DNA of 64,000 bases from an uncultured Candidatus Saccharibacteria bacterium (GTDB taxonomy: Bacteria; Patescibacteriota; Saccharimonadia; Saccharimonadales; Saccharimonadaceae): contig CAMCBN010000005.1 of the NCBI GenBank assembly GCA_945873065.1, forward strand, positions 1-64,000. The letters run 5' to 3'. Below, in pieces: positions 165 to 16,453 of the stretch. The translations under genes and the position numbers were made by a program. Numbering within the stretch: the stretch's first letter is position 1; every line of letters starts with the position of its first letter. Under the pieces are notes generated by a model. The model was not told where the DNA came from, did not search any database, and saw only the letters and a program-made list of their open reading frames with translations.

Positions 165-611
165 ATGACACATCGACAACGTCTCCACACACTACACGGT
201 GGGTCCACTCACACTAACGGTTTCGCTAGAATCCAAAGACATAACTCTATTAATCGTACCAGCGACATTACTGTCCGGCCGATCGGTGGACAACGTTCAC
301 TTCAGGACCGCCGTTCTGCTAATGCTCGTTACCAGCGCTCACATACCATGACGCGGTATCGTCATGATGCACACTTTGGCGGTGAAACCACCTCATCTGA
401 GTATCTCCAAGGCGAAGAACCATATATGCGCAACGAACGTTTGCGTGATGGCGTTAGCTCACGGGTCAAAGAACCAGAAAATTCGATTCGGGCAAGTCAG
501 CAGCATACGCAACGCGCGACAGTGCAATCCAGTACACAATCTCGGTTCGCTCCCAACATCAAACCAAGATTTACCGAACCATCACCACGCAAGTTTGATC
601 CGTTTGGATAG
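165..611 (+). CDS. Hypothetical Arg/Ser-rich protein
   Basis: I do not recognise this 148-residue protein. It is polar and rich in Arg, Ser, Thr and Gln. It has no signal peptide or membrane segment and ends in a proline-rich tail (KPRFTEPSPRKFDPFG). The open frame extends upstream through the opposite-strand tRNA-Gly, but the ATG at 165 is preferred: a TACAAT hexamer ends 6 nt before it, which fits the leaderless promoter pattern seen elsewhere in the window. It converges on the Clp-like gene, leaving only 9 nt between them. The composition suggests a disordered, possibly nucleic-acid-binding protein. That is inference only. Confidence 0.5.
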   Translation: MTHRQRLHTLHGGSTHTNGFARIQRHNSINRTSDITVRPIGGQRSLQDRRSANARYQRSHTMTRYRHDAHFGGETTSSEYLQGEEPYMRNERLRDGVSSRVKEPENSIRASQQHTQRATVQSSTQSRFAPNIKPRFTEPSPRKFDPFG

Positions 612-620
612 ATATCTAAG

Positions 621-3032
621 CTACCCGTTTTCATCACTACGAAACGCTGCTTGCGCCTGCTCCAGCGTTACAGTGATCGTACTCCCCGGGGTGACCACAC
701 CGCTCAACATTTGGCGAGCAACTGTGTTTTCGACAGCTTTCTGCACTACGCGGCGCATTGGACGAGCGCCGAGTCGCGGATCATAACCTCGTTGCACTAG
801 AAAATCACGTGCATCAGGCGATACTGTTACCGCGATTTTTTGCAATGCCAAGGTCTTATTTACATTAGCTACTACCAGATCAAATACTTGGCCTAATTCA
901 TTCATAGTAAACGGACGGAATAACACAATCTCATCAAAACGGTTGAGAAATTCTGGGCGGAACTGCCCACTGTTAATGAGCTCATCTGTGAATTGTTGCT
1001 CAAATTGTTCGAGTCTATATCCTTGCTCGATGTATTGTCTGATACGATCAGCGCCAGCATTGCTAGTTGCTATCACAATAGCGTCACGAAAACTAACCTC
1101 ACGATTTCTTGTATCTCTCAGAATACCTTCGTCTAGCAACTGCAATAATGTCGCCAAAACTTCTGGGGCGGCTTTCTCTATCTCATCTAACAGTACCACG
1201 CTAAATGGTTGCTTCATTACCTGTGCCGTGAGACTCATCGGATCATCTGCCCCATCGGCAATCAGGCGCATAACATCCTCGGGCCGAACGTATTCATTGA
1301 GGTCGATCCGGACCATTCGCTCTTCTCCACCAAAGTACACATCGGCCAATGCTTTGCTCAGCTCTGTTTTACCAACACCAGTCGGGCCAAGAAAAAGAAA
1401 AGCACCAATGGGACGATTCTGGTTGCGCACACCAGCACGCGCCCGGCGTAGCGCATCACTAACAACATTCACTGCCCGAGTTTGATTGACCATTCGTTGA
1501 TGGATCAATTCTTCCATATTAAGCAGGCGCTGCCGGTCATCAATATCGTTTGCAACACTAATCTTCACATCCATCGTCTGCTCGATTGTCTGCTGAATCG
1601 ACCGCTGTGTCACTACATTATCGTGATGGTAACGAGCCGCTGACTCTAGTAACTTAATCGCCTGACCAGGCATAGCTAAATCATGGATATACCGCATACT
1701 TAAACGATATGCTTCGCGCAGTGCCTGGTACTGATAAACTACCCGCTGCTGATGCTCTATTATAATGACCTGCTCCTGCAAGATACGCAGCGTCTCAGCC
1801 TCACCTGTCGCTGGTACTGTGATACGATTAAGTGCATTGATTAACGATGGGTTGCGCTGGCCTATCTGCAAAAAACGCTGTTCATCCATGCTCAATATCA
1901 CCCGTAAACGGCCTGCCTCGAGAATAGGTAATAATACATTCGTTAGATCGACAGCACCCACACCCTCTTCAAAGAAGAGCTGGGCATTATCCAAACAGAT
2001 AATGATATTCTTTGCCATATAAGCCTCACCCAATACTTGCATGACAAGATTTTCCAACTCACCACGGCCAGGGGCCGCTGAGATTAATGCCGATGAATCC
2101 AAAATAAATACTTGACGAAACTTAAGATCGCGCGACAATCGCTCAGATGCATCTAACAGACGACTAGCAAAAGCATGAATGATCGTCGTCTTACCGGTAC
2201 CAGCCTGTCCTACTAATACTGCATTTTGCCGGCCATGTCGACTAAAGGTGTCGATGAGTTGATCGATAGCCTGCTGGTGCGATGCTATATCAACAGTAAG
2301 TACACCGCCACCACGACCGATTTGCTCGCTGATATTCTGACCGAATCGCGTTAGCAATGGTATATACCCAAACGACCAATCACGAGCGATACCACCAGTC
2401 CTGCTCGGGCGCTTAGTGCGTTCCACTAATTGTTGAATATGGTGTTGCCATTGAATCGTTGCATCAAGATCGGCGTCATCAATCTGCAAATGAGCGAGTG
2501 CTGTCTCGTACCCTGGTACGGTACGTATTAACGCGGTCATCAACACACCACTGGTGATTTCTGGTAAATCATTTCGCTGACGAATCGTGTCTGCCATCTG
2601 CCACACCTGCACCATATCTTGCGATGTGTCACTCACGACCTCATCTAATAATGCTGGTCGCAGTCCTAACCTCATCGCCATAAACATGCTATCACCTACC
2701 GGGCGAAGTGCCCAAGCAATGTCGCGCGGTGTTGGATTATTGGGTATACGCCCCAAGATATCACTCGCTAGCAACCCATCTATCGTTGCTCCTTGTGGTG
2801 GTATGTCACCAAGTTCACCTCGATACCAGCAATTTACAGCATATGGCAATGCTGCGATACTAGCAACAAACCATCCCCATGCCGATTCAACTACTAACAA
2901 CATCACCCCAGCAGCGACCAACACGACTGCCAGTACCCACCACCATCTAACGAAAGGCTTCAACTTTACTGCGAAACGAGATTTGCGCGCCCGCCCACTC
3001 GTATAACGAAAATCCCCTACCACGGCAGCCAT
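621..3032 (-). CDS. Membrane-anchored double-AAA+ Clp-type ATPase
   Basis: ClpA/ClpB/ClpC-like unfoldase with two AAA+ modules. A basic N-terminus leads into two hydrophobic segments (about residues 30-65) in place of the usual Clp N-domain repeats. The first Walker A is GQAGTGKT near residue 275. Its Walker B ends in Asp-Asn (CLDNAQ) instead of Asp-Glu. The second AAA+ has GPTGVGKTE near 549, LLDEIEKA and a C-terminal Clp D2-small domain. A longer reading starts at 3086, but the ATG at 3032 (AAGGATG) gives a 16-nt overlap with the upstream membrane gene instead of 70 nt. It probably unfolds substrates at the membrane. Whether it partners ClpP cannot be judged here. Confidence 0.85.
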   Translation of the reverse strand: MAAVVGDFRYTSGRARKSRFAVKLKPFVRWWWVLAVVLVAAGVMLLVVESAWGWFVASIAALPYAVNCWYRGELGDIPPQGATIDGLLASDILGRIPNNPTPRDIAWALRPVGDSMFMAMRLGLRPALLDEVVSDTSQDMVQVWQMADTIRQRNDLPEITSGVLMTALIRTVPGYETALAHLQIDDADLDATIQWQHHIQQLVERTKRPSRTGGIARDWSFGYIPLLTRFGQNISEQIGRGGGVLTVDIASHQQAIDQLIDTFSRHGRQNAVLVGQAGTGKTTIIHAFASRLLDASERLSRDLKFRQVFILDSSALISAAPGRGELENLVMQVLGEAYMAKNIIICLDNAQLFFEEGVGAVDLTNVLLPILEAGRLRVILSMDEQRFLQIGQRNPSLINALNRITVPATGEAETLRILQEQVIIIEHQQRVVYQYQALREAYRLSMRYIHDLAMPGQAIKLLESAARYHHDNVVTQRSIQQTIEQTMDVKISVANDIDDRQRLLNMEELIHQRMVNQTRAVNVVSDALRRARAGVRNQNRPIGAFLFLGPTGVGKTELSKALADVYFGGEERMVRIDLNEYVRPEDVMRLIADGADDPMSLTAQVMKQPFSVVLLDEIEKAAPEVLATLLQLLDEGILRDTRNREVSFRDAIVIATSNAGADRIRQYIEQGYRLEQFEQQFTDELINSGQFRPEFLNRFDEIVLFRPFTMNELGQVFDLVVANVNKTLALQKIAVTVSPDARDFLVQRGYDPRLGARPMRRVVQKAVENTVARQMLSGVVTPGSTITVTLEQAQAAFRSDENG

Positions 3033-3403
3033 CCTTGCATCGTTAATATCAATCCGATAATAGGCAACACTGGCACTAGTGCCCAACTAAACAAAGTAGC
3101 TACGCCTACTAATGCCATCAGTACCAACGCGACCAAACCAAAAATGATCATAAAACTACGAACGACCGCCCCTATCGCCCGTGAAATCAATCGATCGAAA
3201 AAAGCACGAATCTGCACACCGATCGGCCCACGCACCGCTCCAGCCGATATCTGACGAAATGGCGAAAACCATGTCCGAATCAACAAATCAATCGAGAAGT
3301 AATCAAAAGTACTGACGATGTGTCCCCACACAACCAAGACACGCTGCCACCAACCAGCGCCGTACCACCAACGAAAGAATGCCAGCACTACCATGACCAC
3401 CAT
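3017..3403 (-). CDS. Small multi-pass membrane protein upstream of the Clp-like ATPase
   Basis: A 128-residue hydrophobic protein of unknown function. It starts with a Trp-rich segment, has an amphipathic middle containing several Arg, and ends in two closely spaced membrane segments with the terminus LTMQGWLPW. Its 3' end overlaps the start of the Clp-like ATPase, so the two are probably co-translated and may form a membrane complex (inference from overlap only). Internal Met codons a few residues in could also serve as the start. Confidence 0.7.
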   Translation of the reverse strand: MVVMVVLAFFRWWYGAGWWQRVLVVWGHIVSTFDYFSIDLLIRTWFSPFRQISAGAVRGPIGVQIRAFFDRLISRAIGAVVRSFMIIFGLVALVLMALVGVATLFSWALVPVLPIIGLILTMQGWLPW

Positions 3404-3581
3404 TGTAGCACACCGCGGCAGTTATCCTCAAAGCCACATTTTGCCCTGAAGATAGACATGCCACCATAGCACTGCTTCATTTATATCGACCGAGTCTTAC
3501 TGTCGCTTCATTCCCGACACCATCGATAGAAGCTGCACTCAAACCCTCTTGCGCCAGCTCCTCGTGAAACCCTAGACATGC

Positions 3582-3587
3582 TATAAT
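3582..3587 (+). promoter_or_regulatory. -10 hexamer TATAAT of murT, leaderless layout
   Basis: A perfect TATAAT is followed by exactly 7 nt and then the ATG of murT. No Shine-Dalgarno sequence fits in that space, so the transcript should begin at or next to the start codon. Confidence 0.75.
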
Positions 3588-3594
3588 ACTAGAT

Positions 3595-4866
3595 ATGATT
3601 CGTATTTCAACTCTCGTCGGCAAGGGTGTGCAAAAAGCCGCTCAATTGCGTGGTGGTGGGTCGGCGCTACCCGGACTTGTCGTCGAAAAGATCGACAAGC
3701 AATTTTTATCTCGTACTTTACAATCTCTACCATATGGCGTAGTCGTCATCAGCGGTACAAATGGCAAGACCACTACCACCAAGATGGTCGTCGAGCTCAT
3801 GCGAAGCCAAGGGTTGCGGGTATTCACTAATCGTACTGGAAGTAATTTCACTCGTGGTGTAGCAGCAGCACTATTAGAAGAAGTCGACAGTAAGGGCAAT
3901 CTACCAGCTGATATTGCAGTAGTCGAGCTCGACGAGGCTCATGCTGTCCACTTCGTTCGACAAGTAGCGCCACGGTATTGTCTTCTACTGAATGTCTTGC
4001 GCGATCAACTAGACCGCTTCGGTGAGATCGACTACACTGCGCAGTTACTTCACGTCATTGCCACACACACTACACACGGTATTGTCCTAAATGGTGACGA
4101 CCCTCGTCTTGCGCGATCTGAGTTTCGCACAGATACCACCGCACCTATTCATTATTACGGCGTGAATCAACACTTAGCCAAACTTTTTCCTAGCGACGAC
4201 GCTATGCGAGATGGTACCACTGCACCAGCCAACCGACAAGCAGCCTACGACGTAGAGCTTTACGATATGCGCAATAATGACATCACATTCCGATTTGATC
4301 AACACGATCATACTGTTACACTCAAGCTCAAAGGTAGTTATAATGCCCAAAACGCCGCTGGCGCCATCGCTTTAACTCGCTGCGTCCTTGGCGAGCGGTG
4401 CGACAATAGCACAATGCTCACTGCCCTAGCTAAAGTCGAACCAGCCTTTGGCCGTGGTGAGACCGTTACCATTCACGGTCATCCGTGCGAGCTAGTACTC
4501 GTCAAGAATCCAAGCGGGTTTCGACTGAGCCTAGCTTCGTTTGATCCATCACAAGCAGCCACGATGATCGCCATCAACGACCAATACGCCGATGGTCGTG
4601 ACATGAGCTGGCTATGGGATGTCGACTTCAACAGCCTGCGAAGTACTGGGGTAGCCATGATAAGTGGTGTGCGCGCTTTTGATATGGCACTTCGATTACA
4701 ATACGACGAGGTAGAAGCACAACAGATTATACCAAACCTAAAACAGGCACTAGCTGAGTTTTTGGCGTCAAATACCGACAGGCCATTGCGTATTTATTGT
4801 ACTTATACTGCCATGCTCACACTACGCCGCGAGCTTAACACTTACACGAAAGTAAACACCGTATGA
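3595..4866 (+). CDS. murT: Lipid II isoglutaminyl synthase, MurT-type Mur ligase subunit
   Basis: MurT with GatD amidates the alpha-carboxyl of D-Glu in the lipid II stem peptide, using ATP. The Mur-ligase P-loop GTNGKTTTTK is at residues 54-63, followed by the central domain (LLLNVLRDQLDRFGE) and a C-terminal MurT/DUF1727 domain containing DVDFNSL. The family usually has a four-Cys zinc ribbon inserted in the central domain. Here that stretch (about residues 160-235) has no Cys pairs. The start is fixed by TATAAT-N7-ATG. The stop overlaps the gatD start (ATGA). Length of 423 aa is slightly below the family norm, as expected without the ribbon. Confidence 0.92.
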   Translation: MIRISTLVGKGVQKAAQLRGGGSALPGLVVEKIDKQFLSRTLQSLPYGVVVISGTNGKTTTTKMVVELMRSQGLRVFTNRTGSNFTRGVAAALLEEVDSKGNLPADIAVVELDEAHAVHFVRQVAPRYCLLLNVLRDQLDRFGEIDYTAQLLHVIATHTTHGIVLNGDDPRLARSEFRTDTTAPIHYYGVNQHLAKLFPSDDAMRDGTTAPANRQAAYDVELYDMRNNDITFRFDQHDHTVTLKLKGSYNAQNAAGAIALTRCVLGERCDNSTMLTALAKVEPAFGRGETVTIHGHPCELVLVKNPSGFRLSLASFDPSQAATMIAINDQYADGRDMSWLWDVDFNSLRSTGVAMISGVRAFDMALRLQYDEVEAQQIIPNLKQALAEFLASNTDRPLRIYCTYTAMLTLRRELNTYTKVNTV

Positions 4867-5594
4867 ACATGAAGCATCACACTATCACGATCCTACAACT
4901 CTACCCCAAAGCTATGAATATCTATGGCGACTGGGGTAATGTTCTTACACTCAAACGACGGCTTGAGTGGTATGGCTACAGCCCCATTGTAGCCGACTAC
5001 AACCCAGGCGATGTATTCCCCGAAGATGTTGATATTGTTGTCGGCGGAGGCGGACAAGATTCCGGCCAAATCACCATCCAAGATGATCTCCTCGCCATCG
5101 CCCCAGCCTTGCATCGTCTAGCCGATGATGGAGTGCCGATGCTCGTGGTATGTGGACTATACCAACTATTTGGCAAATCATTCACTACTGCTCGTGGTAA
5201 TGTCATTGAGGGGATCCGCCTATTTAACATCGAAACGATCGCTGGTAGCCAACGACTAATCGGTAATATCACTACCAAAAGTGTCGATTTCGGCGAAATT
5301 ATCGGCTACGAAAACCACAGTGGCCTTACGCAACTTGGGGATGATGTATCGCCACTTGGTATCGTGGTACGTGGCGCTGGCAATAACGGGCAAGATCAGA
5401 CCGAAGGCGCACGCTATCGTAATGTGATCGGCACATACATGCATGGGTCTGTTTTGCCCAAGAACCCTCGATTAGCCGATTTCTTGATAGAGCAAGCTGT
5501 CACACGCATATACGGCGACTTCTCGCCAGTGACGTTAATCGATGACACTTTTGCCAATCAAGCACGAGCAGTTGCCATGAAGCGACCGCGCTAG
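4863..5594 (+). CDS. gatD: Lipid II isoglutaminyl synthase, GatD glutamine amidotransferase subunit
   Basis: Class I glutamine amidotransferase that supplies ammonia to MurT. The N-terminal LQLYPKAMNIYGDWGN is typical of GatD. The nucleophile lies in VVCGLYQLFG (Cys97) and the catalytic His in GTYMHGSVLPKNP (His194). It overlaps murT by 4 nt, so the two are translationally coupled. An alternative start is the second Met, two codons later. The pair implies amidated peptidoglycan, a Gram-positive feature. Confidence 0.93.
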   Translation: MNMKHHTITILQLYPKAMNIYGDWGNVLTLKRRLEWYGYSPIVADYNPGDVFPEDVDIVVGGGGQDSGQITIQDDLLAIAPALHRLADDGVPMLVVCGLYQLFGKSFTTARGNVIEGIRLFNIETIAGSQRLIGNITTKSVDFGEIIGYENHSGLTQLGDDVSPLGIVVRGAGNNGQDQTEGARYRNVIGTYMHGSVLPKNPRLADFLIEQAVTRIYGDFSPVTLIDDTFANQARAVAMKRPR

Positions 5595-5599
5595 CCGAC

Positions 5600-6766
5600 C
5601 TACCGTGGGATAATTTTCATCAAAAACTTACGTTTAACGGCACAGTATATCAATAATACTGCCCCAATAGACAATGCCGCATTGCCAGGGATTTCTCCTA
5701 AACGATTAAACGATGTGATATACACATCAGTCGTGTAATAGTCCGGAGCAAACACCAAATGCAAGCCCAGCACAACAAAAGCATGTAGTGTATATACGTA
5801 CAGCGAGTTTCGCCCAAATGCCAACAGCAGCCAACCACACCACCGTACTATACTGTCTTCATATCGACGAAATATTATGTAGAACCCCGCAAACCACAAC
5901 CAAGCTAATGCGATCCGCCCAGGTGGTAGATCAAGTTTACTTAATTGTTTTGCTATTTCTGCGTACATCGTCACTATCGCATGGTTGAGATCCCCATTCA
6001 GCCCAGGCGCGACGAACACTGCATATACATTAAGAGATAACGTCACAACAAACAAACCAACGACACCCTGCTTCACTCGATAGCGCCAACTTATAGGCCG
6101 CGACTGCCATGCTTGTATCACTTCCGGCAAGTAGTATCCCAATACGAACGCCATAAAGAATAATAGTTGCCATGTCAGTGGCTGATTTAATTCACTTACT
6201 GGGCGTGGAGCAATCGCCCAAACCACCCCACTGATAGCCAAAACTACACACCACCAGCCACGACGAAGTAACCACAACGCAGCCGGTGCTACTACCAAAA
6301 ACAGTGCATAGAGACGTAAATAATCCGCCCAACCGTAAAATTGCTGTAATGTAATTATCTGCCACCCAAGTACAAATAAATCAGTATGCGCATCGGGTAG
6401 CGGCATTTTCACCCCCGGGTTACCTACAAACTGCCAGCTAATCAACAAAGCTAACACCGTCGCAATGATACTCGTTAGATATAGTGCCCCCGCTCGCTTC
6501 CACATCAATTTCGCCGCCGACATCAAAGGTTTATCACGCAACTTTGCCCCTCGTACGAGACCAAGCACCAAACCCGAAATGATGAAGAACCCTTCTGCTG
6601 CCGTTACTATGAGCCTACTATCTCCCGTCATAAAAGCAAACCCATTCGGGAAATATGTTAAATGATCTAAAATAATAACTACCAAAAACCAGCCTCGCAT
6701 CAAATCAAGGCTCACGATGCGCCCGACTTTAGATGGCGCTGATATTTTCGTTGAAATACTCGTCAC
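5600..6766 (-). CDS. OpgC/acyltransferase-like membrane protein
   Basis: A 388-residue protein with about ten membrane segments. The N-terminal block SLDLMRGWFLVVIILDH followed by FIISGLVLGLVRG matches OpgC and acyltransferase-3 style enzymes, which transfer acyl or succinyl groups to envelope glycans. A GTG start lies 8 nt after a TATACT hexamer. It is convergent with gatD and followed on the same strand by a GT39-like glycosyltransferase gene upstream, so a role in surface glycan modification is plausible. The acceptor is unknown. Confidence 0.75.
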   Translation of the reverse strand: MTSISTKISAPSKVGRIVSLDLMRGWFLVVIILDHLTYFPNGFAFMTGDSRLIVTAAEGFFIISGLVLGLVRGAKLRDKPLMSAAKLMWKRAGALYLTSIIATVLALLISWQFVGNPGVKMPLPDAHTDLFVLGWQIITLQQFYGWADYLRLYALFLVVAPAALWLLRRGWWCVVLAISGVVWAIAPRPVSELNQPLTWQLLFFMAFVLGYYLPEVIQAWQSRPISWRYRVKQGVVGLFVVTLSLNVYAVFVAPGLNGDLNHAIVTMYAEIAKQLSKLDLPPGRIALAWLWFAGFYIIFRRYEDSIVRWCGWLLLAFGRNSLYVYTLHAFVVLGLHLVFAPDYYTTDVYITSFNRLGEIPGNAALSIGAVLLIYCAVKRKFLMKIIPR

Positions 6767-6829
6767 TGTCTACCAGTATAACAGTCTTACTTCTAAATAA
6801 TACAGAATAGTCGTCAAACCACTACAAAA

Positions 6830-8401
6830 TTACGTTCGCTCAAATACAGCAGTGACCAATGTATCGCCAGATTCTGATACAAAACGGTACTGTGATGGCA
6901 AATTTGGTATGGTAGAACTATTTCTGTAGTATAGTACCTTGATACGTTTCGCTTTCGTAAAAGGTTGCGTACTATCACGTAGTTTACGATACTCACTAGT
7001 CTCGAGAGGTGCATAACCACCTTTCAGAGCAGTCGGACTATTATCGACGAACGATAATTCTGTGCACGAAGTACGCTGAATATAATAACTAATCTCGATC
7101 GCAACATACGGATCAGCAGTCACTACGATAGAGCCATCCTTGCATCCTTGCAAGTCGGCCACAACACGCTTCACATTGGGCTGATCCTGTCGTTGAAAAT
7201 TAAAATTACCCCGCCAATACAGTTGGCCTACCCCATAAAGCATCATCACTGGCACAAACAATAATACTGCTCTGCGCTGCCATGACGGCCAGTTTCGCTT
7301 GATAGCTACAGCTGTGTATATGACAACTCCCAGTATCGTTACAAGACTTGGCGCGATATATGTCAAATATCTTTCAACATACATAGGTGCTGCTACTATG
7401 GATACAATCAACAGAATACTCACTGGGGCCACACATTGGAATACTAGTAGCCAAAAAACCGCTTGGTGCTGCATTTGTCGCAATGCTCGCGGCCAAGCCC
7501 AAATTACTAGCAACACTAACCCTATCACCAATAGCGATGTGATTGCACCCAAAAACATCGTCGGTTTATACAGTGTATTGAATGAGATAATACCAACTAA
7601 TTGATCAATATTCATTGGCTGCGCAATCTGTGCGCGAGCACCATTTCCCAACTGGCTGACTAGTACCAATAACCACGGGGTAAATAACACCACGCTTCCT
7701 ACATATGCCCATACCCACGGCAACCTAAACCATGTACGAGCACGTCTACTAAGTAATAAGCCTTTCCGACGAGACATCACTATAAGCCAAAAAACATGCG
7801 ACATCCAAAAAAATGCCGTATAGTACACGGTCAACATGCCTAGCGCAACTAACATTGCATACACAGCCCACAATCTTCGTGAATGACTATACCAAGCTCG
7901 AACCAACACAGCAGTAGCACTTACACAAATCAACGACGCCATCGCGTACATGCGAATCTCGAACCCATAGCGCATGAGTAGTGGCGTACATGACAATAAT
8001 GCAAGTGTATACATAGCCGGCCTCACTCCAAACCACCGCCGAGCAAACGATGCAGCGACGATTATTGATAGCCCATAACATACCACGCTTAGTGACCGTA
8101 GTGCTGCCTCGCCGAATCCCCATATTCCAGCCCACGCCTTTAGCACCAAATAATATAGCGGCGGATGGGTATCTAGACCTGTCAAACGAAATAATTCAGC
8201 TACTGGTTGCCGCGCCAACCAAATCGAATACGACTCATCAAACCACACACTTTGCTGCGAACCAATCCACCAGCATATAGCCATAGCCATCAATGGCAAA
8301 AAAATAAGGGCTATATAAAACGCTTTTAGAGAGCGCTGAGGATCAGTATCACGAGGACTCTTTATCGCGCGAGAAATGCCATGTGTGGGCGTTTTTTGCA
8401 T
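6830..8401 (-). CDS. GT39-like membrane glycosyltransferase
   Basis: About 523 residues with roughly eleven membrane segments. After the first segment comes WFDESYSIWLARQPVAELFRLTGLDTHPPLYYLVLKAW, split here only as the family pattern: an acidic DE in the first loop and the D-THPP-YY motif, both characteristic of PMT/ArnT-type (GT39, GT-C fold) enzymes that use polyprenyl-phosphate sugars. A C-terminal soluble domain follows. The frame is open to a TTG at 8428, but ATG 8401 is preferred. The sugar and acceptor are unknown. Confidence 0.8.
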   Translation of the reverse strand: MQKTPTHGISRAIKSPRDTDPQRSLKAFYIALIFLPLMAMAICWWIGSQQSVWFDESYSIWLARQPVAELFRLTGLDTHPPLYYLVLKAWAGIWGFGEAALRSLSVVCYGLSIIVAASFARRWFGVRPAMYTLALLSCTPLLMRYGFEIRMYAMASLICVSATAVLVRAWYSHSRRLWAVYAMLVALGMLTVYYTAFFWMSHVFWLIVMSRRKGLLLSRRARTWFRLPWVWAYVGSVVLFTPWLLVLVSQLGNGARAQIAQPMNIDQLVGIISFNTLYKPTMFLGAITSLLVIGLVLLVIWAWPRALRQMQHQAVFWLLVFQCVAPVSILLIVSIVAAPMYVERYLTYIAPSLVTILGVVIYTAVAIKRNWPSWQRRAVLLFVPVMMLYGVGQLYWRGNFNFQRQDQPNVKRVVADLQGCKDGSIVVTADPYVAIEISYYIQRTSCTELSFVDNSPTALKGGYAPLETSEYRKLRDSTQPFTKAKRIKVLYYRNSSTIPNLPSQYRFVSESGDTLVTAVFERT

Positions 8402-8476
8402 GTTTTTATAGTAACTGGTTACATGCAAAAAATCTACTGGCTACTACTATATTTTACTGGTATACTATCAGCGTGG

Positions 8477-8553
8477 GTACCCGTAGCTCAGCTGGATAGA
8501 GCGTTGGTTTCCGGAACCAAAGGCCGCAGGTTCGAATCCTGCCGGGTATACCA
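8477..8553 (+). tRNA. tRNA-Arg(CCG)
   Basis: The acceptor stem GTACCCG pairs with CGGGTAT (a G-U at the first pair). The D-arm is GCTCAGCTGGATAGAGC, the anticodon stem-loop TTGGT-TTCCGGA-ACCAA gives CCG, and the T-arm is GCAGGTTCGAATCCTGC. CCA is encoded at 8551-8553. A TATACT hexamer lies about 12 nt upstream. Confidence 0.95.
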
Positions 8554-8568
8554 AATACTTAGCGCATA

Positions 8569-8785
8569 GTACTCACTACTGATGTTCCATTGATTGTACT
8601 TGGCGCTGGTATGGTGACGCTCCGATTATCTTTTTCGCTTTTCGTGGGTATCATAGCCTTTTTTAATAGCAATTGACATTGTCATCAACCGAGTTCGACC
8701 GCAAAGCCAAAGTTGGGTGCTATGGCTGGGTGCCAGCATATTGATCGGCAGCAACACCATCAGTCAAACGATTCAGACATCATAG
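8569..8785 (+). pseudogene. Possible decayed membrane-protein remnant
   Basis: Between tRNA-Arg and the pilin gene, two short open stretches meet with a +1 shift at 8674-8676. The first reads as a hydrophobic peptide (DVPLIVLGAGMVTLRL...FVGIIAFFN). The second continues with DIVINRVRPQ and WVLWLGASILIG before a stop. Neither has a start or RBS. The hydrophobic periodicity suggests a fragment of a transporter C-terminus, but the stretches are short and could be chance. Confidence 0.25.
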
Positions 8786-8798
8786 ACTTATGAAATTA

Positions 8799-9269
8799 TT
8801 ATGGCTGTAGTACAGGTACACACACCTGCGGAGCACCTGCTATTGTCTCAACCCGCTGACATAGTCCTACGACGCCAGCCACCGATGTCATAGACTCTCC
8901 GTTCATGGCATGCGGGGTGCTACATGAACCTTCTTTAGGCTCATTGTCTGTTTTCTTCACAATATATCTCATATCGCTTGATGTACGTGTCGTTGCTTCA
9001 AGGCAAAAGTCATTCGATGACACATACTTTAGTGTAGTCGTCACATTGTCGCTTTTTTGATAATCATCTGGCAAAGCCATCGGATAACCGTTATGAAATG
9101 TCCTGAAGCTATCCATTGCTGCTGATACTGCCTTTAGGTCATTCACCAACTCTGTCCGAGCAGAACTCTGTCGCCAACCAGCATATCCTGCTGCTGATAC
9201 CGCCGCCAAAATAGCTAGCACTACAATTACCGTCATTATTTCTACGATCGTAAACCCTTTTTTACCCAT
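8799..9269 (-). CDS. Type IV pilin-like prepilin
   Basis: A class III signal GKKGFTIVEIMTVIVVLAILA: a short basic leader, then cleavage between G and F by prepilin peptidase, Glu at +5 and a hydrophobic alpha-helix. The globular part contains Cys residues that could form a disulfide. The total is 156 aa. The start at 9269 is set by TATAAT ending 6 nt before the ATG. No other pilus gene lies nearby, so it may be a minor pilin or major subunit of pili assembled by genes elsewhere. Type IV pili drive twitching and host contact in Saccharibacteria, which is known for the group but not shown here. Confidence 0.85.
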   Translation of the reverse strand: MGKKGFTIVEIMTVIVVLAILAAVSAAGYAGWRQSSARTELVNDLKAVSAAMDSFRTFHNGYPMALPDDYQKSDNVTTTLKYVSSNDFCLEATTRTSSDMRYIVKKTDNEPKEGSCSTPHAMNGESMTSVAGVVGLCQRVETIAGAPQVCVPVLQP

Positions 9270-9390
9270 AATCACATTATACCATAAGCGTAATTAAATA
9301 AATCATACATGCTTATTTTTATTTTTTCTTGAGATTTGACACACTAAGGTATTGATTTTTTTGCCACCCCTGTTGTATAATGCGTTCACT

Positions 9391-9939
9391 ATGAGACGAA
9401 ATGAACTACTACCGCGCTCTTTGCGAGGAGCGACTATTTTAACAATTGGCCTATCGGCTTTAACTGGCTGCAGTGCTGCCGCAGAGTACGGGCAAGCACC
9501 AAAAGCACCCGTAGCGGAGCAACAAAACGCCGCCGCAATGGAGGCGGGCGCCCAGGCACAAGCCAACGCAACAGATCTAATTGACCGCTATCAAGCCTAT
9601 CTCGACGCAACGAAGCGTGGTGATACCGACACAGCCTCGCCTTTACCAAGTGATGCAGTTATAGTAGAGCGGCGTATCGGCGATGGTGGCAGTATCGGTA
9701 CCGCTGTTGATGCTGCTATGAAAAACTACGCCGAGGAGAGTCACGCAAATGGAGAAGACATCATATGGGACTCAGTCCAAAATGGCATCACCAATGCGAC
9801 GAGCGCACATATCAAAGAAACGCTCGGTATAACGATGCCTCACCCTAACGATTCTGTCTCTGTAGCTATCTACGATGCAGATGGCGACCCCGCCACTGAA
9901 GGGTCTGTCGCTGTCCCTGTCGACATCAAGGTCGGATAA
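9391..9939 (+). CDS. Putative lipoprotein
   Basis: A 182-residue secreted protein of unknown function. The basic N-terminus and hydrophobic stretch end in a lipobox LTGC (Cys near residue 26), so it is probably lipidated and held on the outer face of the membrane. An Ala-rich linker follows, then a mixed domain. TATAAT lies 9 nt before ATG 9391. An earlier in-frame start at 9352 would place the start inside the promoter and is rejected. Confidence 0.7.
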   Translation: MRRNELLPRSLRGATILTIGLSALTGCSAAAEYGQAPKAPVAEQQNAAAMEAGAQAQANATDLIDRYQAYLDATKRGDTDTASPLPSDAVIVERRIGDGGSIGTAVDAAMKNYAEESHANGEDIIWDSVQNGITNATSAHIKETLGITMPHPNDSVSVAIYDADGDPATEGSVAVPVDIKVG

Positions 9940-10031
9940 GGCTCACTACCTACAGTCTTAGTACAGCTACTTTCACCTATGCTAAACTCTTACTCGTTGC
10001 ACCTCTCGGTGTCGATTGTTATACTGTTTTT

Positions 10032-10463
10032 ATGAAGGATTTTTCATTCTCGGTCAGTCTAATTCGTGCATGGTTGCGCGGTCGTGTCGCTGTGGACGAT
10101 TCGCTTGTTCACGTTACGCTACCCTATACAATTTTTTGGATAATATCGCTTGGCTCCCACCGTGAATCAATCCCCGCAAAAAATATTAGCAGCGTCAAAG
10201 AAATCTTTCATATATCAGTTCCCCAAATTATCGTTGGAATCGTCATGGTCTATTTCACGATGTTTGATATTACCCATGGGCACAAACCGCTGGCAATCTT
10301 CCTGCTATTTTTCCTTGGCGTTATACTGATTTTAGATGCTATTCGCGTCATTATCACGATAGAAAAATCCGGTCAATCACTAGCTATCCGCCTACCTTTT
10401 TATGAGAGAGCCAAAGCAAGGCAGATCACATCCGCTCTACGACAGCTCATACAACGTCAGTAA
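10032..10463 (+). CDS. Small membrane protein with PH-like fold
   Basis: A 143-residue protein. Two hydrophobic segments in the middle (around PQIIVGIVMVYFTMF and AIFLLFFLGVILIL) sit between an N-terminal beta-rich part (VDDSLVHVTLPYTIF) and a C-terminal strand-and-helix part. The layout resembles bacterial PH-domain membrane proteins, but the match is weak and the function is unknown. A TATACT hexamer ends 6 nt before the ATG. Confidence 0.55.
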   Translation: MKDFSFSVSLIRAWLRGRVAVDDSLVHVTLPYTIFWIISLGSHRESIPAKNISSVKEIFHISVPQIIVGIVMVYFTMFDITHGHKPLAIFLLFFLGVILILDAIRVIITIEKSGQSLAIRLPFYERAKARQITSALRQLIQRQ

Positions 10464-10501
10464 GAGCTAGCTGTTCGCGACTCAACCCTCTATAGTTAAT
10501 G

Positions 10502-11008
10502 TTAGATAAAATCACTATCTTCACTAACAGCCTCCTCATCATACGGAAACTCAATGTTATATTCTTTCTTTAACTGTACACGATCGACAGCCGATTCATT
10601 AGTGTCAATCAAAAATCGGCGATTCAACATGGTGCGACCAAGCAGAATCGGATAGATCTTTTTTGACCTGTCAGCCAGCGTGAATTTTGCATTAAAAATC
10701 TTTGGTCCCAATTTTACCTTGAATCGCACATCATAACGCTCTTCGCGATGCCCAAACGAATTTGCAACTATTACCTTTTGGAACTTATCTGTCGCTATAC
10801 GTTGCGCCATTGACCCGCACACCGGGTGTCCACCAAATAACGTAAACGAAACAATTCCATCTTTTTCAACAATATCGCTGGCATGCACCGCCGAGCGATA
10901 TGCCCCACTGTCTACCTTAGCCGGAACACCATGAATATTCAGATCAACGAAATTAAGCCGCTCGGAGCGACCTATAATTAATTTATGAAAATCGTTGCGC
11001 GTAGACAT
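10502..11008 (-). CDS. Retropepsin-like aspartic protease (RimB/COG4067 family)
   Basis: A 168-residue protein with the family signature VDSGAYRSAVHA (catalytic Asp33 in DSG) near the N-terminus and the C-terminal LLGRTMLNRRFLIDT. Relatives are encoded next to RimK-like ATP-grasp ligases and are thought to remove or process the added amino acids (family knowledge). Here it lies downstream of a decayed ATP-grasp gene and a DUF1704 peptidase. A TATAAT at about 11053 gives a leader of roughly 40 nt, so this gene has its own promoter. Confidence 0.8.
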   Translation of the reverse strand: MSTRNDFHKLIIGRSERLNFVDLNIHGVPAKVDSGAYRSAVHASDIVEKDGIVSFTLFGGHPVCGSMAQRIATDKFQKVIVANSFGHREERYDVRFKVKLGPKIFNAKFTLADRSKKIYPILLGRTMLNRRFLIDTNESAVDRVQLKKEYNIEFPYDEEAVSEDSDFI

Positions 11009-11136
11009 AATGATTCAATGCGGCTAGCTTTTCCTATCCTATATGTTATAATTATACCAATAATCAAATGTTTTGTAAATAGTTATGCATATCCTTCTTG
11101 TCGGAAAAGCCTTTTCAGAAATTAAACAATACTTGG

Positions 11137-11777
11137 TCAGCAAACATCACCTTTATCGCACATACTGATATCCAGAGAGGGGTATGTAACCATCGTGTCT
11201 GTTATGGTACGGCGAACATCATTTTCGTTTTTAAGGAGCTGCTCAATCGTGCTTACGCCATCGCCAGTCACCGCGGGGCGCTTACGCAATATGGCTGCTC
11301 GTAAACGTTGTTTTATGATCACGAAACGGACTTCTTCACCAGTAATTTGCTCTTGTACGACTAGAGCACTATCTTGCTCGAGTCCACTTTTTACCGCATC
11401 ATACAAGCTATCTATTGTCATAATGTCCCTTACGATAGAGATCCATAGACCGGCTTCACGATAAGCGGTGCACGTTGTATGATATCTTCGTAATGGGCAA
11501 GCTGTGTGTGGTCGTCTATTCGTATTGTCATCGGAACACGATACCCCATGCTTGCAACGTAATCACTAGCCAAAGACTTGTTGCGGGAAAGTTCACGAAT
11601 GGCATTATGAGTCGTCGGATATGCAAGAGCTGGGCTATGATAAGTCATCCATCGAACGCGTCCGTCTTTGAAAAATCGCGTGAAAGGGATTTGATCAATC
11701 ATGAACTGTTCTGCAACAAAACCTCTTGCCACCAAAGCCTGGGTTATAATTGCAATATTTGACGTTTTGTCTTCCAT
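11137..11777 (-). pseudogene. ATP-grasp ligase remnant, frameshifted and truncated
   Basis: The first frame (11777-11430) carries an ATP-grasp N-terminus with SRNKSLASDYVASMGYRVP and the nucleotide-binding IVKPVYGSLS, then stops at TAA. The next frame, offset by one base, continues with ALVVQEQITGEEVRFVII and RPAVTGDGVSTIEQLL, typical of cyanophycin-synthetase/RimK-like ATP-grasp, and stops at 11137. The C-terminal catalytic part with the metal ligands is missing. Total length is about 210 codons against more than 300 expected. The start is still intact: TATAAT-N7-ATG at 11777. It is transcribed right after the DUF1704 gene. Confidence 0.75.
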
Positions 11778-11785
11778 GTGTTCTA

Positions 11786-13150
11786 TTATACACCCTCAAC
11801 TACCGATTTAATCGACGAGGGCATTGGTGCCATTTCATTGAGAAGTTCTCGATCAATAGGATTAAACGGATTAAATTTTGCCGAAAGCAACCAGCGCATA
11901 CCTTCATCAACCTGATCCGCCTCTGCTATAGCGTTAAGCAGTTTCCAGGCGCCATTAAGACCATGGAGGTAATTAATATCTTTGCGGTGCGCGATACCAC
12001 GATCGATATCCGTCATGCCTGCAAATGTACGACGGATTTGCCTTTCAGCCATTCGTTCTGCCTGGGAAATTTTCTCTGGAGTCAGTTTATCGCCCGCTAG
12101 CGTAATCTGACGCATAGACTTCGTCAGCTGAGCAACTTTATCTTGAGACAGACCGAGCGATTCAACAAAGCCGATTGACACATAATGATCAATGCCTCGA
12201 TTCGGATCATATTTTCTATTAAGACACTGTTCAAGTGCAATCTCAAACGACTCTTCAAACTCACTATATGTCGCCGTGCCTGCTACACCAATCTCGTCAC
12301 CATTAGATTCTGCAATACCAGACCTAAGGGCGTGCCCAAATACCTCGTGAACAACAAGGTTTTTAGCAATATCCTTTGAAACTTGTTTCTGCGAAGGAAC
12401 GACCACTTCGCGCGAAGACGCACGCACAGAAACAGCACTCTTTGCCCGCTCAATCACTTTAGCCTTCCAGCCATTGTTGCGTAAATCAGGAGTGGTATCG
12501 ATCGCCAGATTAAACACCTCGACCAACTGGCTTGCATCAAGTTCGTCGCTCTCAACAGTATTGATCATCTCAAAAATATCGCTAAACTGGCCTTCGAGCC
12601 ACTCACCAACTACAGTCAAAGTCTTTTCTGATGGCTGCTCTAACATCACTTCTTCGCCTTCAATTTGTACCGCACTCGCATAGTCATCAAGTTCATCGAG
12701 AAGCGAGGCTTTTGCTATTTCCAAATCCTTCGGAACAGACGTCGCTTCTAAAAGTTCTATCTTTTTACACAAAGCCGCCTTGAACAGCACCGGGCTGTAA
12801 TGGCTATAGCGCTCAGCCTCAAGTCTACGAATATCATCGCTTCTGTCCACCTCGCCAGTTACCTGGTCAACCATTACCCCAGCGAGCGCCAATTCTAATA
12901 GCCGCTGACGAATCAAGCCTTTTACAGCTAAAGTCGAGGAGTCCATCGTATCGTGCAATTCTTCGAGATAAGTCGCCAACTCGTCCTGAGAAGTATGCGC
13001 CCCTTCAGGATCATATTCATCGACTGTCCTTTTAGAGAGAATCGTATCGCCATTTGAAGAAGCTAGCGTGTCAAGTTTTGCAGGCGTATAGGGCGATGAC
13101 CGTCGTATAGCTTCTGTGGCGCCTTGTAAAACCTGTCTCTCTGTATTCAC
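11786..13150 (-). CDS. DUF1704 family metallopeptidase (MATCAP/QEGLA-like)
   Basis: A 454-residue protein. The HEVFGH motif at residues 268-273 is an HEXXXH zinc site typical of DUF1704, the family that includes eukaryotic tyrosine carboxypeptidases (MATCAP). The glutamate-rich EESFEIALEQ and following helices match the downstream part of the domain. It is probably a soluble, zinc-dependent carboxypeptidase. Its bacterial substrate is unknown. It heads a cluster with an ATP-grasp remnant and a retropepsin, so processing of ligase-added amino acids is a plausible link (inference). It starts with GTG. Confidence 0.78.
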   Translation of the reverse strand: MNTERQVLQGATEAIRRSSPYTPAKLDTLASSNGDTILSKRTVDEYDPEGAHTSQDELATYLEELHDTMDSSTLAVKGLIRQRLLELALAGVMVDQVTGEVDRSDDIRRLEAERYSHYSPVLFKAALCKKIELLEATSVPKDLEIAKASLLDELDDYASAVQIEGEEVMLEQPSEKTLTVVGEWLEGQFSDIFEMINTVESDELDASQLVEVFNLAIDTTPDLRNNGWKAKVIERAKSAVSVRASSREVVVPSQKQVSKDIAKNLVVHEVFGHALRSGIAESNGDEIGVAGTATYSEFEESFEIALEQCLNRKYDPNRGIDHYVSIGFVESLGLSQDKVAQLTKSMRQITLAGDKLTPEKISQAERMAERQIRRTFAGMTDIDRGIAHRKDINYLHGLNGAWKLLNAIAEADQVDEGMRWLLSAKFNPFNPIDRELLNEMAPMPSSIKSVVEGV

Positions 13151-13333
13151 TCTATGACAATAACATAATTTTTTATAAAAAGCAATGATTCTATGTTATC
13201 TACGAAAATAGGCCTCGCTTCTTCGTGCCGTCTTACGAAGCACCTTCTTTATCTCGTCCTCAGAAGCAGTTTTTAGCAGTCTTCGACACACCTAATATTT
13301 CATAATAGTCGCACTTGTTCATATATGTTTGTA

Positions 13334-14052: not shown

Positions 14053-14427
14053 ATGACAAAATATGAAGGAACAAAGCTAGCCGATTTCTCACCAATCACA
14101 AAGGTTAAGGAATTAGAAATCATCGATATCATCGAAGGCAACGGAGCCGAAGTGCAGCCCGGCGCAACAATTACCGCACATTATACGGGTGCGCTGTGCA
14201 AGAATGGTATTATTTTTCAGAGTAGCCATGACTTTGGAAAGCCAGTCACCTTTGGACTATACCAAGTCATCCAGGGCTGGACCGAAGGCGTACCGGGCAT
14301 GAAAATAGGCGGTATGCGCCGTTTGATTATTCCCAGTGAAATGGCGTACGGATCGGTGCGGGCTGCTAGTAACATTCCGCCGAATAGCGATTTGGTGTTT
14401 GATATTGAGCTGATAGAAATAAAATAA
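14053..14427 (+). CDS. FKBP-type peptidyl-prolyl isomerase
   Basis: A 124-residue cytoplasmic FKBP. It contains the core motifs GATITAHYTGAL, VIQGWTEGVPGMKIGGMRRLIIP and AYGS, and the C-terminal PPNSDLVFDIELIEI. It has no signal peptide. It follows the HdeD-like stress gene by about 40 nt but also has its own TATACT hexamer ending 6 nt before the ATG, so it may be read from both promoters. It catalyses cis-trans isomerisation of prolyl bonds during folding. Confidence 0.92.
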   Translation: MTKYEGTKLADFSPITKVKELEIIDIIEGNGAEVQPGATITAHYTGALCKNGIIFQSSHDFGKPVTFGLYQVIQGWTEGVPGMKIGGMRRLIIPSEMAYGSVRAASNIPPNSDLVFDIELIEIK

Positions 14428-14499: not shown

Positions 14500-16398
14500 T
14501 TATTTTTCGTCGACCACCTCACCTTCAACCGGCTCGTCTTTGTCTGATTTTTCATCAGACGACTTTGCGCTGTCCTCCTCGGCTTTTTTGTCATCAGCTC
14601 GCTGTTGGTACAACTTAGCACCGATAGACATTGTGGCATCCCCCAATGCCTTCACCGCTGCTTCGATCTCATCCTTATCTTCGGCATCTTTATGCTTCTC
14701 TGCTTCTTTGACGGCTTTTTCAATAGCCTTTTTGTCCTCATCGGAAATCTTATCTTTGAATTCATCTGGCATTTTCTTTGCCTGATAAATCGCGTTCTCT
14801 AGCTGATTTTTAGCATCGATCACCTCACGCTTTTTCTTGTCTTCATCAGCGTGTATCTCAGCCTCTTTTTGGGCTTTTTCAATGTCCTCTTTACTCATAT
14901 TGCCCGAATTTTGGACAGTGATCGACTGCTCTTTGCCAGTGCCCTTATCTTTGGCAGTAACATTGAGAATACCGTTAGCGTCGATATTAAAGGTGACTTC
15001 GATCTGTGGCACACCACGCGGTGCTGGAGCTATACCGTCAAGAGTGAAACGCCCAAGTGATTTGTTGTCGTTCGCAAATTCGCGCTCACCTTGTAGAACG
15101 TGAATTTCCACCTGAGGCTGGTTATCAGCTGCTGTGCTAAACGTCTGCGACTTGCTGGTCGGCACAGTGGTGTTGCGCTCAATCAATTTGGTTGAGACGC
15201 CGCCCATCGTTTCAATACCAAGGCTCAACGGTGTCACGTCCAGCAACAACACGTCCTTGACATCGCCCGCTAGCACGCCGCCCTGAATAGCTGCGCCAAC
15301 CGCCACCACTTCATCCGGGTTCACGCCTTGCATCGGGTCTTTGCCGAACAGTTTCTTGACGCGCTCAACTACGGCTGGCATACGGGTCATACCACCAACC
15401 AGCACAATTTCGTTAATGTCAGATTTACTGAGACCGGCGTCTTTGAGCGCCTTTTCAACCGGGCTGTCCAAACGATCGAGCAGGTCCTTTACCAAATCTT
15501 CCAATTTGGCCCGCGTCAGGCTTAATTCAAAGTGCTTTGGCCCATCAGCATCAGCGGTGATGAACGGAATATTAACTTCATATTCGGTGGTAGATGATAG
15601 TTCCTTTTTAGCCTTCTCTGCCTCATCCTTCAGGCGCTGCATCGCTGCGTTGTCCTTGCGCAGATCAATACCATCAGACTTTTTGAATTCATCGATAAAG
15701 TAATTGACGATAGCATTGTCAAAATCCTCGCCGCCCAAGTGCGTATCACCGTTGGTCGAGCGCACCTCAAACACGCCATCGCCCAGCTCCAGAATTGATA
15801 CGTCAAACGTACCGCCACCGAGGTCAAAGACAACAATTTTTTCTTCTTTACCTTTTTCCAGACCGTATGCCAGAGCGGCTGCCGTTGGCTCATTGATGAT
15901 GCGCTTGACTTCTAGGCCAGCGATTTTACCAGCGTCCTTCGTTGCCTGGCGCTGTGAGTCGTCAAAGTAAGCCGGCACGGTGATAACTGCTTCAGTGACC
16001 TTTTCACCCAAGAAAGCTTCTGCGTCTGCCTTGATCTTGGACAAAACCATAGCCGAAACTTCTTCTGGGGTGTATTCTTTGTTACCCATCTTAACCGCCA
16101 CACCATCGCCTTTTTTCACGATTTCGAATGGTAAGATATCGAGATCTTTTTGTACTTCTTTGTCGGTGAATTTACGGCCGATAAGACGCTTGACGCCGTA
16201 AATCGTGTTTTTGGCGTTGGTCACCCGCTGGCGCTGCGCCACCTGGCCGACCAGGCGTTCGCCCTTTTTATTGACTGCCACCACTGATGGCGTCGTGCGG
16301 TTACCTTCGGCATTCGCGATCACCTCTGGCTTGCCCGCTACCAGATAAGCGAAGGCGCTGTTGGTTGTACCGAGGTCGATACCGATAATCTTTCCCAT
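14500..16398 (-). CDS. dnaK: Chaperone DnaK (Hsp70)
   Basis: A complete 632-residue Hsp70. The ATPase start is [18 protein letters not shown], with [20 protein letters not shown] and [14 protein letters not shown]. The substrate domain carries [16 protein letters not shown]. The acidic C-terminal tail is Lys/Glu/Asp-rich. ATG 16398 has an AAAGGGGAA Shine-Dalgarno. A start nine codons earlier is possible but unsupported. It stands alone, with grpE-hrcA about 2.6 kb away and no dnaJ in the window. A promoter flanked by two CIRCE elements controls it. Confidence 0.97.
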
Positions 16399-16453
16399 AT
16401 AGTCTTTCCCCTTTCGTTTGTTCACAAGACCATTGCGTTTTTCTGATTCTATT

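Follow-up and report, generated by a model that had tools for sequence, protein, structure and literature searches.

RimK and RimB control the ribosome in Pseudomonas: RimB is a retropepsin-like endopeptidase that strips off the glutamates that RimK adds to ribosomal protein S6, it stimulates RimK to make poly-glutamate, and hybrids of RimB and RimK exist (PMC11957791). Peptidases of the MATCAP type are known from work on tubulin, where TMCP1 and TMCP2, both members of the MATCAP family, take off C-terminal residues and polyglutamate chains, acting opposite the ATP-grasp-type TTL/TTLL ligases (PMC10499314). In Pseudomonas aeruginosa, the RloABC system also has a retropepsin and an ATP-grasp protein in one operon, and its retropepsin cleaves poly-Glu in vitro (PMC12239564). 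Thus, RimK/RimB and MATCAP deglutamylases have each been described, and we found no account of their bacterial combination in the literature that we searched. Specifically, we found no account linking RimK to Saccharibacteria, or ATP-grasp proteins to DUF1704; a 2009 survey of amidoligases (cited by PMC12239564) may mention it. Here, we describe a locus within a 64-kb stretch of Candidatus Saccharibacteria DNA (the window) that is a decayed member of the known RimK/RimB kind, in a lineage-specific variant with a MATCAP-like peptidase and extra ligases.

Two intact peptidases and a damaged ligase

The locus, at 10502-13150, consists of an intact MATCAP-like zinc peptidase, a damaged ATP-grasp ligase and an intact RimB-like retropepsin (Table 1). 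A first-pass annotation of the window had described the ligase as frameshifted and lacking its C-terminus, with both peptidases intact; reading frames, profile searches and alignments all confirm this description. The window lies on contig C5 of a draft genome of 0.85 Mb in 6 contigs. The locus is anchored by an intact dnaK, and the FKBP-type isomerase is a conserved dnaK/dnaJ neighbour in genus mates (78-84% identity to its counterpart in G137 and G153). Near the 3' side of the cluster are genes for a prepilin-like protein (methylation motif at its N-terminus), a PMT_2-type glycosyltransferase and a tRNA-Arg.

Table 1. Positions of the features discussed in the text, in the window unless contig C6 is named.
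Feature	Position	Strand	Remarks
PMT_2-type glycosyltransferase	6830-8428	-	near 3' side of cluster
tRNA-Arg (ccg)	8477-8553	+	near 3' side of cluster
Prepilin-like protein	8799-9275	-	near 3' side of cluster
rimK 5' remnant, about 12 codons	10489..10524	-	VKIVILSNINYR; overlaps retropepsin end
RimB-like retropepsin, intact, 168 aa	10502..11008	-	DSGA motif; PF05618 53.2 bits, cut-off 27
Promoter-like site of retropepsin	11051..11079	-	TTTACA-17-TATAAT, TG before -10; consensus match only
5' remnant of convergent L-amino-acid-ligase-type ATP-grasp, about 25 codons	11085..11159	+	tblastn E 0.002
Broken ATP-grasp ligase, middle part, different frame	11137..11421	-	homology stops about 11155
Broken ATP-grasp ligase, N-terminal half	11430..11777	-	frame stops at SLS|RG motif
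MATCAP-like (former DUF1704) zinc carboxypeptidase, intact, 454 aa	11786..13150	-	single open frame
dnaJ 5' remnant, about 32 codons, two frames	13226..13322	-	tblastn with L031 DnaJ
FKBP-type peptidyl-prolyl isomerase, intact	14053..14427	+	PF00254 93 bits
dnaK, intact, anchor of locus	14500..16425	-	89-90% identity to DnaK of same-genus G137, G015
RimK, intact, 303 aa	C6 (L079) 8331-9242	-	
ATP-grasp/retropepsin fusion, 773 aa	C6 (L079) 9239-11560	-	

On profile evidence, we consider the peptidase to be a remote member of the MATCAP/DUF1704 family. Its zinc motif, HEVFGH (H268, E269, H273), and a downstream glutamate, E300, are invariant in aligned relatives; HExxxH with a downstream Glu is shared with the MATCAP/TMCP proteins KIAA0895L and KIAA0895, as is similarity at the profile level. 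The window peptidase alone scores 19.9 bits against Pfam MATCAP (PF08014), under the cut-off of 27, and matches no NCBIfam model of any kind; among 12 aligned members of the family, 11 give a match to the MATCAP model (E <= 0.1; best E 3.4e-28), and a joint profile of the family finds human KIAA0895L (PDB 7z5g) with E 8.8e-8. Unlike the MATCAP/TMCP proteins, the window peptidase is bacterial, very diverged, and found without tubulin. Structural proof of a MATCAP fold was not obtained despite a good predicted model (pLDDT 84.5): a Foldseek comparison with the PDB gave no match with E <= 0.001, the best being M3/M32-type metallopeptidases at E about 0.02. The QEGLA-motif proteins (TIGR02421) are a further point of comparison, matched weakly and far under the cut-off by the peptidase of a same-type cluster, L038 (54 bits versus 339). 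As a single query against our genome contig collection, the window peptidase found no relatives; the search succeeded with a retropepsin alignment as the query. In two related peptidases, HExxH replaces the HExxxH of the others, including that of the window (HEGGH in L032 6675-8003; HEATH in L060 6001-7380). In the same-genus genome G071 (L085 5005-6420), three stops break the peptidase, so that this eraser has decayed there independently.

We class the retropepsin as RimB-like rather than RimB, because it scores 58.1 bits against an NCBIfam RimB equivalog cut-off of 200; it also matches the RloA3 model, again well under the equivalog cut-off (53.8 bits). RloA proteins differ in having signal peptides and a transglutaminase/7TM partner, of which we saw no counterpart in the cluster of Saccharibacteria. 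The D-[TS]-G active-site motif is D33-S-G35, of which D and G are invariant among relatives. Private changes occupy four of 90 otherwise invariant sites, with zero to eight in relatives, and hence are not in excess. The promoter-like site upstream has 11 of 12 consensus bases, is one of four such sites with TG in the 64 kb, and has a similar extended -10 at the equivalent place in L031, L080 and L081. Rather than being adjacent or fused to a RimK, this retropepsin has just a rimK remnant of ~12 codons nearby, and its C-terminal tail differs from that of all close relatives exactly at the point where rimK is lost. Of the 13 genomes in the genus, the window genome is the only one with this subtype (315 bits versus 99 or less), and the retropepsin is 87% identical to the copies in L080 and L031, which belong to other genera, whereas DnaK is 89-90% identical to those of genus mates (Table 1). 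This pattern suggests that the retropepsin was acquired laterally, or that it is left over from a second type of cluster. The dN/dS of the retropepsin was discarded as a means of dating decay, with synonymous sites saturated.

More than the ligase has been lost

We set the break points of the ligase by alignment with the intact ligases of L038, L039, L025, L037 and L051. The middle part is 43% identical to residues 135-222 of the L038 ligase (E 2e-20). The last ~113 residues are missing, including the family-invariant D282, E301 and N303 (L038 numbering), such that the gene has neither the single open frame nor the C-terminal metal-binding Asp/Glu/Asn of a functional ligase. The middle part resembles cyanophycin-synthetase and GshAB-type ATP-grasps (about 41-42 bits, far under the cut-offs), and the ligases in relatives are single-domain proteins of about 340 aa that, in contrast to those enzymes, have no Mur-ligase or GshA part.

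The first-pass annotation held that only the ligase was broken. However, a tblastn search of the window with the intact-cluster proteins of the closest relative (G141, locus L031) showed that dnaJ, a convergent ATP-grasp gene and rimK have also been reduced to remnants, each sitting where intact relatives carry the full gene. The dnaJ remnant, just upstream of the peptidase, consists of two 16-residue pieces (81% identity, E 8e-6 each). The convergent ATP-grasp, which is intact in relatives (L031 1900-3135), is also picked out by an N-terminal position matrix, scoring 55.4, with the runner-up among 127,870 window positions at 21.3. With a RimK N-terminal matrix, the rimK remnant is the top of 127,930 window positions by a narrow lead (18.9 versus 18.4), and hence the case for it rests on its expected position. 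The L031 cluster (409-7626) has five ATP-grasps (RimK, two L-amino-acid-ligase-like proteins and two others), one retropepsin and one peptidase.

Homology extends to about 11155 for the broken ligase and to about 11159 for the convergent gene. A single deletion of roughly 1.5 kb over the convergent ligase pair would explain both the lost C-terminus and the lost second gene. The alternative that the ligase appears broken through a sequencing or assembly error has in its favour that the genome is a draft in 6 contigs, and that a lone frameshift is common in draft assemblies; the first-pass annotation had proposed resequencing of 11420-11430 to exclude an error. We consider such an error highly improbable. 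A base-call error cannot account for the broken ligase, because most of a second gene disappeared along with the C-terminus, and because dnaJ and rimK are reduced too; moreover, an intact dnaJ is located elsewhere in the genome. Resequencing would therefore not restore the ligase, and with several independent lesions and remnants we reject sequencing error as the sole cause.

A second locus in the same genome

A search of the same genome for another ATP-grasp, as the first-pass annotation had proposed, found two genes on contig C6. The first encodes an intact RimK that passes the NCBIfam equivalog cut-off for S6--L-glutamate ligase (350.7 versus 331 bits; Pfam RimK 202.6 and Rimk_N 120.7 bits). 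Beside it is a gene for a protein whose N-terminal part is a RimK-type ATP-grasp and whose C-terminal part is a retropepsin. The linker of this fusion, about 330 residues (roughly 300-630), matches no Pfam family, and fusions in relatives are just about 440-520 aa long. Of 253 sites that are otherwise invariant, 17 carry private changes in the C6 RimK, versus 2-7 in genus mates; from these counts, the displaced gene seems to have been evolving faster since it left the operon. Apart from the pieces in the window and the genes on C6, we found no further copy of the broken-ligase type in this genome, nor of the L-amino-acid-ligase type, the latter by a search without a positive control.

Contig C1 carries an intact dnaJ (DnaJ_C), directly followed by a DUF192-like gene and by genes of 480 and 240 aa; in genus mates, these three genes follow rimK. 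With dnaJ and the downstream genes on C1, and rimK on C6, gene order indicates that the ancestral row is now divided over three contigs (C5, C1 and C6). The three contigs are alike in composition, which supports, but does not prove, that they belong to one genome. Contamination is unlikely for C5, given a DnaK that is 90% identical to those of genus mates, and a composition like that of C1 and C6. The support for C6 is weaker: its composition is alike, but a relative of one neighbouring gene occurs in only one of 12 genus mates.

Where only the ligase is broken, the first-pass annotation had reasoned, either the erasers have gained a new role or the ligase acts from elsewhere, for example from the host. 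We favour a ligase acting from elsewhere. A host-supplied ligase is unnecessary, however, since the genome has its own RimK on C6, in addition to the ATP-grasp/retropepsin fusion. A new role for the erasers, such as cutting a host or phage peptide tail, could be reconciled with the altered C-terminal tail of the retropepsin at the point of rimK loss, and with a subtype that is unique in the genus. Nonetheless, we found nothing in favour of the new role as proposed, and consider it very improbable: the intact RimK in the same genome means that a new role is not needed, and both active sites are the same as in relatives.

The cluster recurs in Saccharibacteria

Related records come mostly from Candidatus Saccharibacteria. 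Among 151 genomes of the window genome's family, profile searches matched RimK in 129, the retropepsin in 115 and the peptidase in 63. The usual order is dnaK, dnaJ, peptidase, zero to three or more further ATP-grasps, retropepsin, rimK and a gene for a DUF192 protein; the additional ATP-grasps are common. Indeed, the trio is a recurring neighbourhood, as the first-pass annotation had anticipated, and intact ligases are found in related Saccharibacteria. In Candidatus Microsaccharimonas sossegonensis (L145, on the same contig as L036), the peptidase, retropepsin and rimK are all intact.

As in Pseudomonas and the RimBK hybrids, a RimK ATP-grasp lies beside a RimB-like retropepsin, and there are also ATP-grasp/retropepsin fusions. 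A RimK/RimB pair is present in most of the sampled Saccharibacteria genomes. In contrast to RimABK, a MATCAP-like peptidase and extra ligases have been added in many, with up to several further ATP-grasps near dnaJ/dnaK, and the fusion partners are often ATP-grasps other than RimK; the rimK of the window itself differs in being a remnant.

These families could be chance neighbours with no joint action, and rimK does occur without the peptidase in many genomes (129 versus 63 of 151). We consider chance very unlikely, since the order is conserved across many genera, the gene directly after the retropepsin is rimK in 101 of 109 distinct loci, and fusions recur (about 20 retropepsins in related loci are fused to an ATP-grasp). 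Moreover, no genome has the peptidase without rimK; all 63 peptidase genomes have it (P = 2e-6 assuming independent genomes, which they are not).

Discussion

We consider it probable that the locus in the window is a copy of a RimK/RimB-type polyglutamylation cluster that deletions have eroded and that is now dispersed, with erasers that either serve what the C6 RimK makes or are decaying. Given that RimB and the TMCP proteins are deglutamylases (PMC11957791, PMC10499314), the cluster looks, by analogy, as if it pairs a writer of glutamate tails with two kinds of eraser, and the write-and-erase reading in the first-pass annotation fits this biochemistry on S6 and tubulin.

From the gene content, lesions, remnants, recurrence and second locus described above, we infer the activities, substrate, expression and joint action of the parts as follows. 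In its ancestral form, the cluster most likely both builds glutamate tails and trims them. RimK would add glutamates to a carboxyl end, either of ribosomal protein S6 or of free poly-glutamate; the RimB-like retropepsin would cut inside the glutamate chain, and the MATCAP-like carboxypeptidase would trim residues off its end. The extra ATP-grasps may attach other residues or start chains. S6 of the window genome ends in KEESE. We considered the S6 tail as a marker of the substrate, and dropped it: tails ending in D/E are found in 31 of 37 genomes with rimK and in six of 10 without, a difference that is not significant.

The erasers in the window most likely have the C6 RimK product as their substrate, or else are redundant and decaying. 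The retropepsin in particular may be redundant, because contig C6 already has one. Taken further, redundancy would mean that the whole window locus is dying, with erasers that are not needed given the C6 RimK and its own retropepsin, and that are open only for lack of time. Four neighbouring genes are already remnants, and across the family the peptidase has a patchy distribution (63 of 151 genomes), with several stops in same-genus G071; together with the additional retropepsin on C6, these observations are what would be expected of a dying locus. Nonetheless, both erasers retain full frames and catalytic residues, and the retropepsin retains a strong promoter-like site with no excess of private changes; we therefore view a dying locus as unlikely, albeit well ahead of the other alternatives considered above. 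For the erosion and dispersal that we favour, both ways of accounting for the erasers remain, namely that they serve the distant RimK and that they have not yet decayed.

A broader, tentative possibility, which we put forward by analogy as more doubtful than the erosion of a RimK/RimB-type cluster itself, is a tail code in Saccharibacteria resembling that of TTLL and MATCAP in eukaryotes, in which RimK and additional ATP-grasps would write a glutamate-containing tail onto a protein that the retropepsin and the MATCAP-type peptidase would edit; in the genome studied here, the editors would still serve a distant writer. If the cluster does work as proposed, two kinds of eraser would be tied to one pathway. 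It would also suggest that bacteria which depend on a host and have very small genomes still bear the cost of editing ribosome or peptide tails, and the eroded copy in the window would be a natural experiment on which parts are dispensable.
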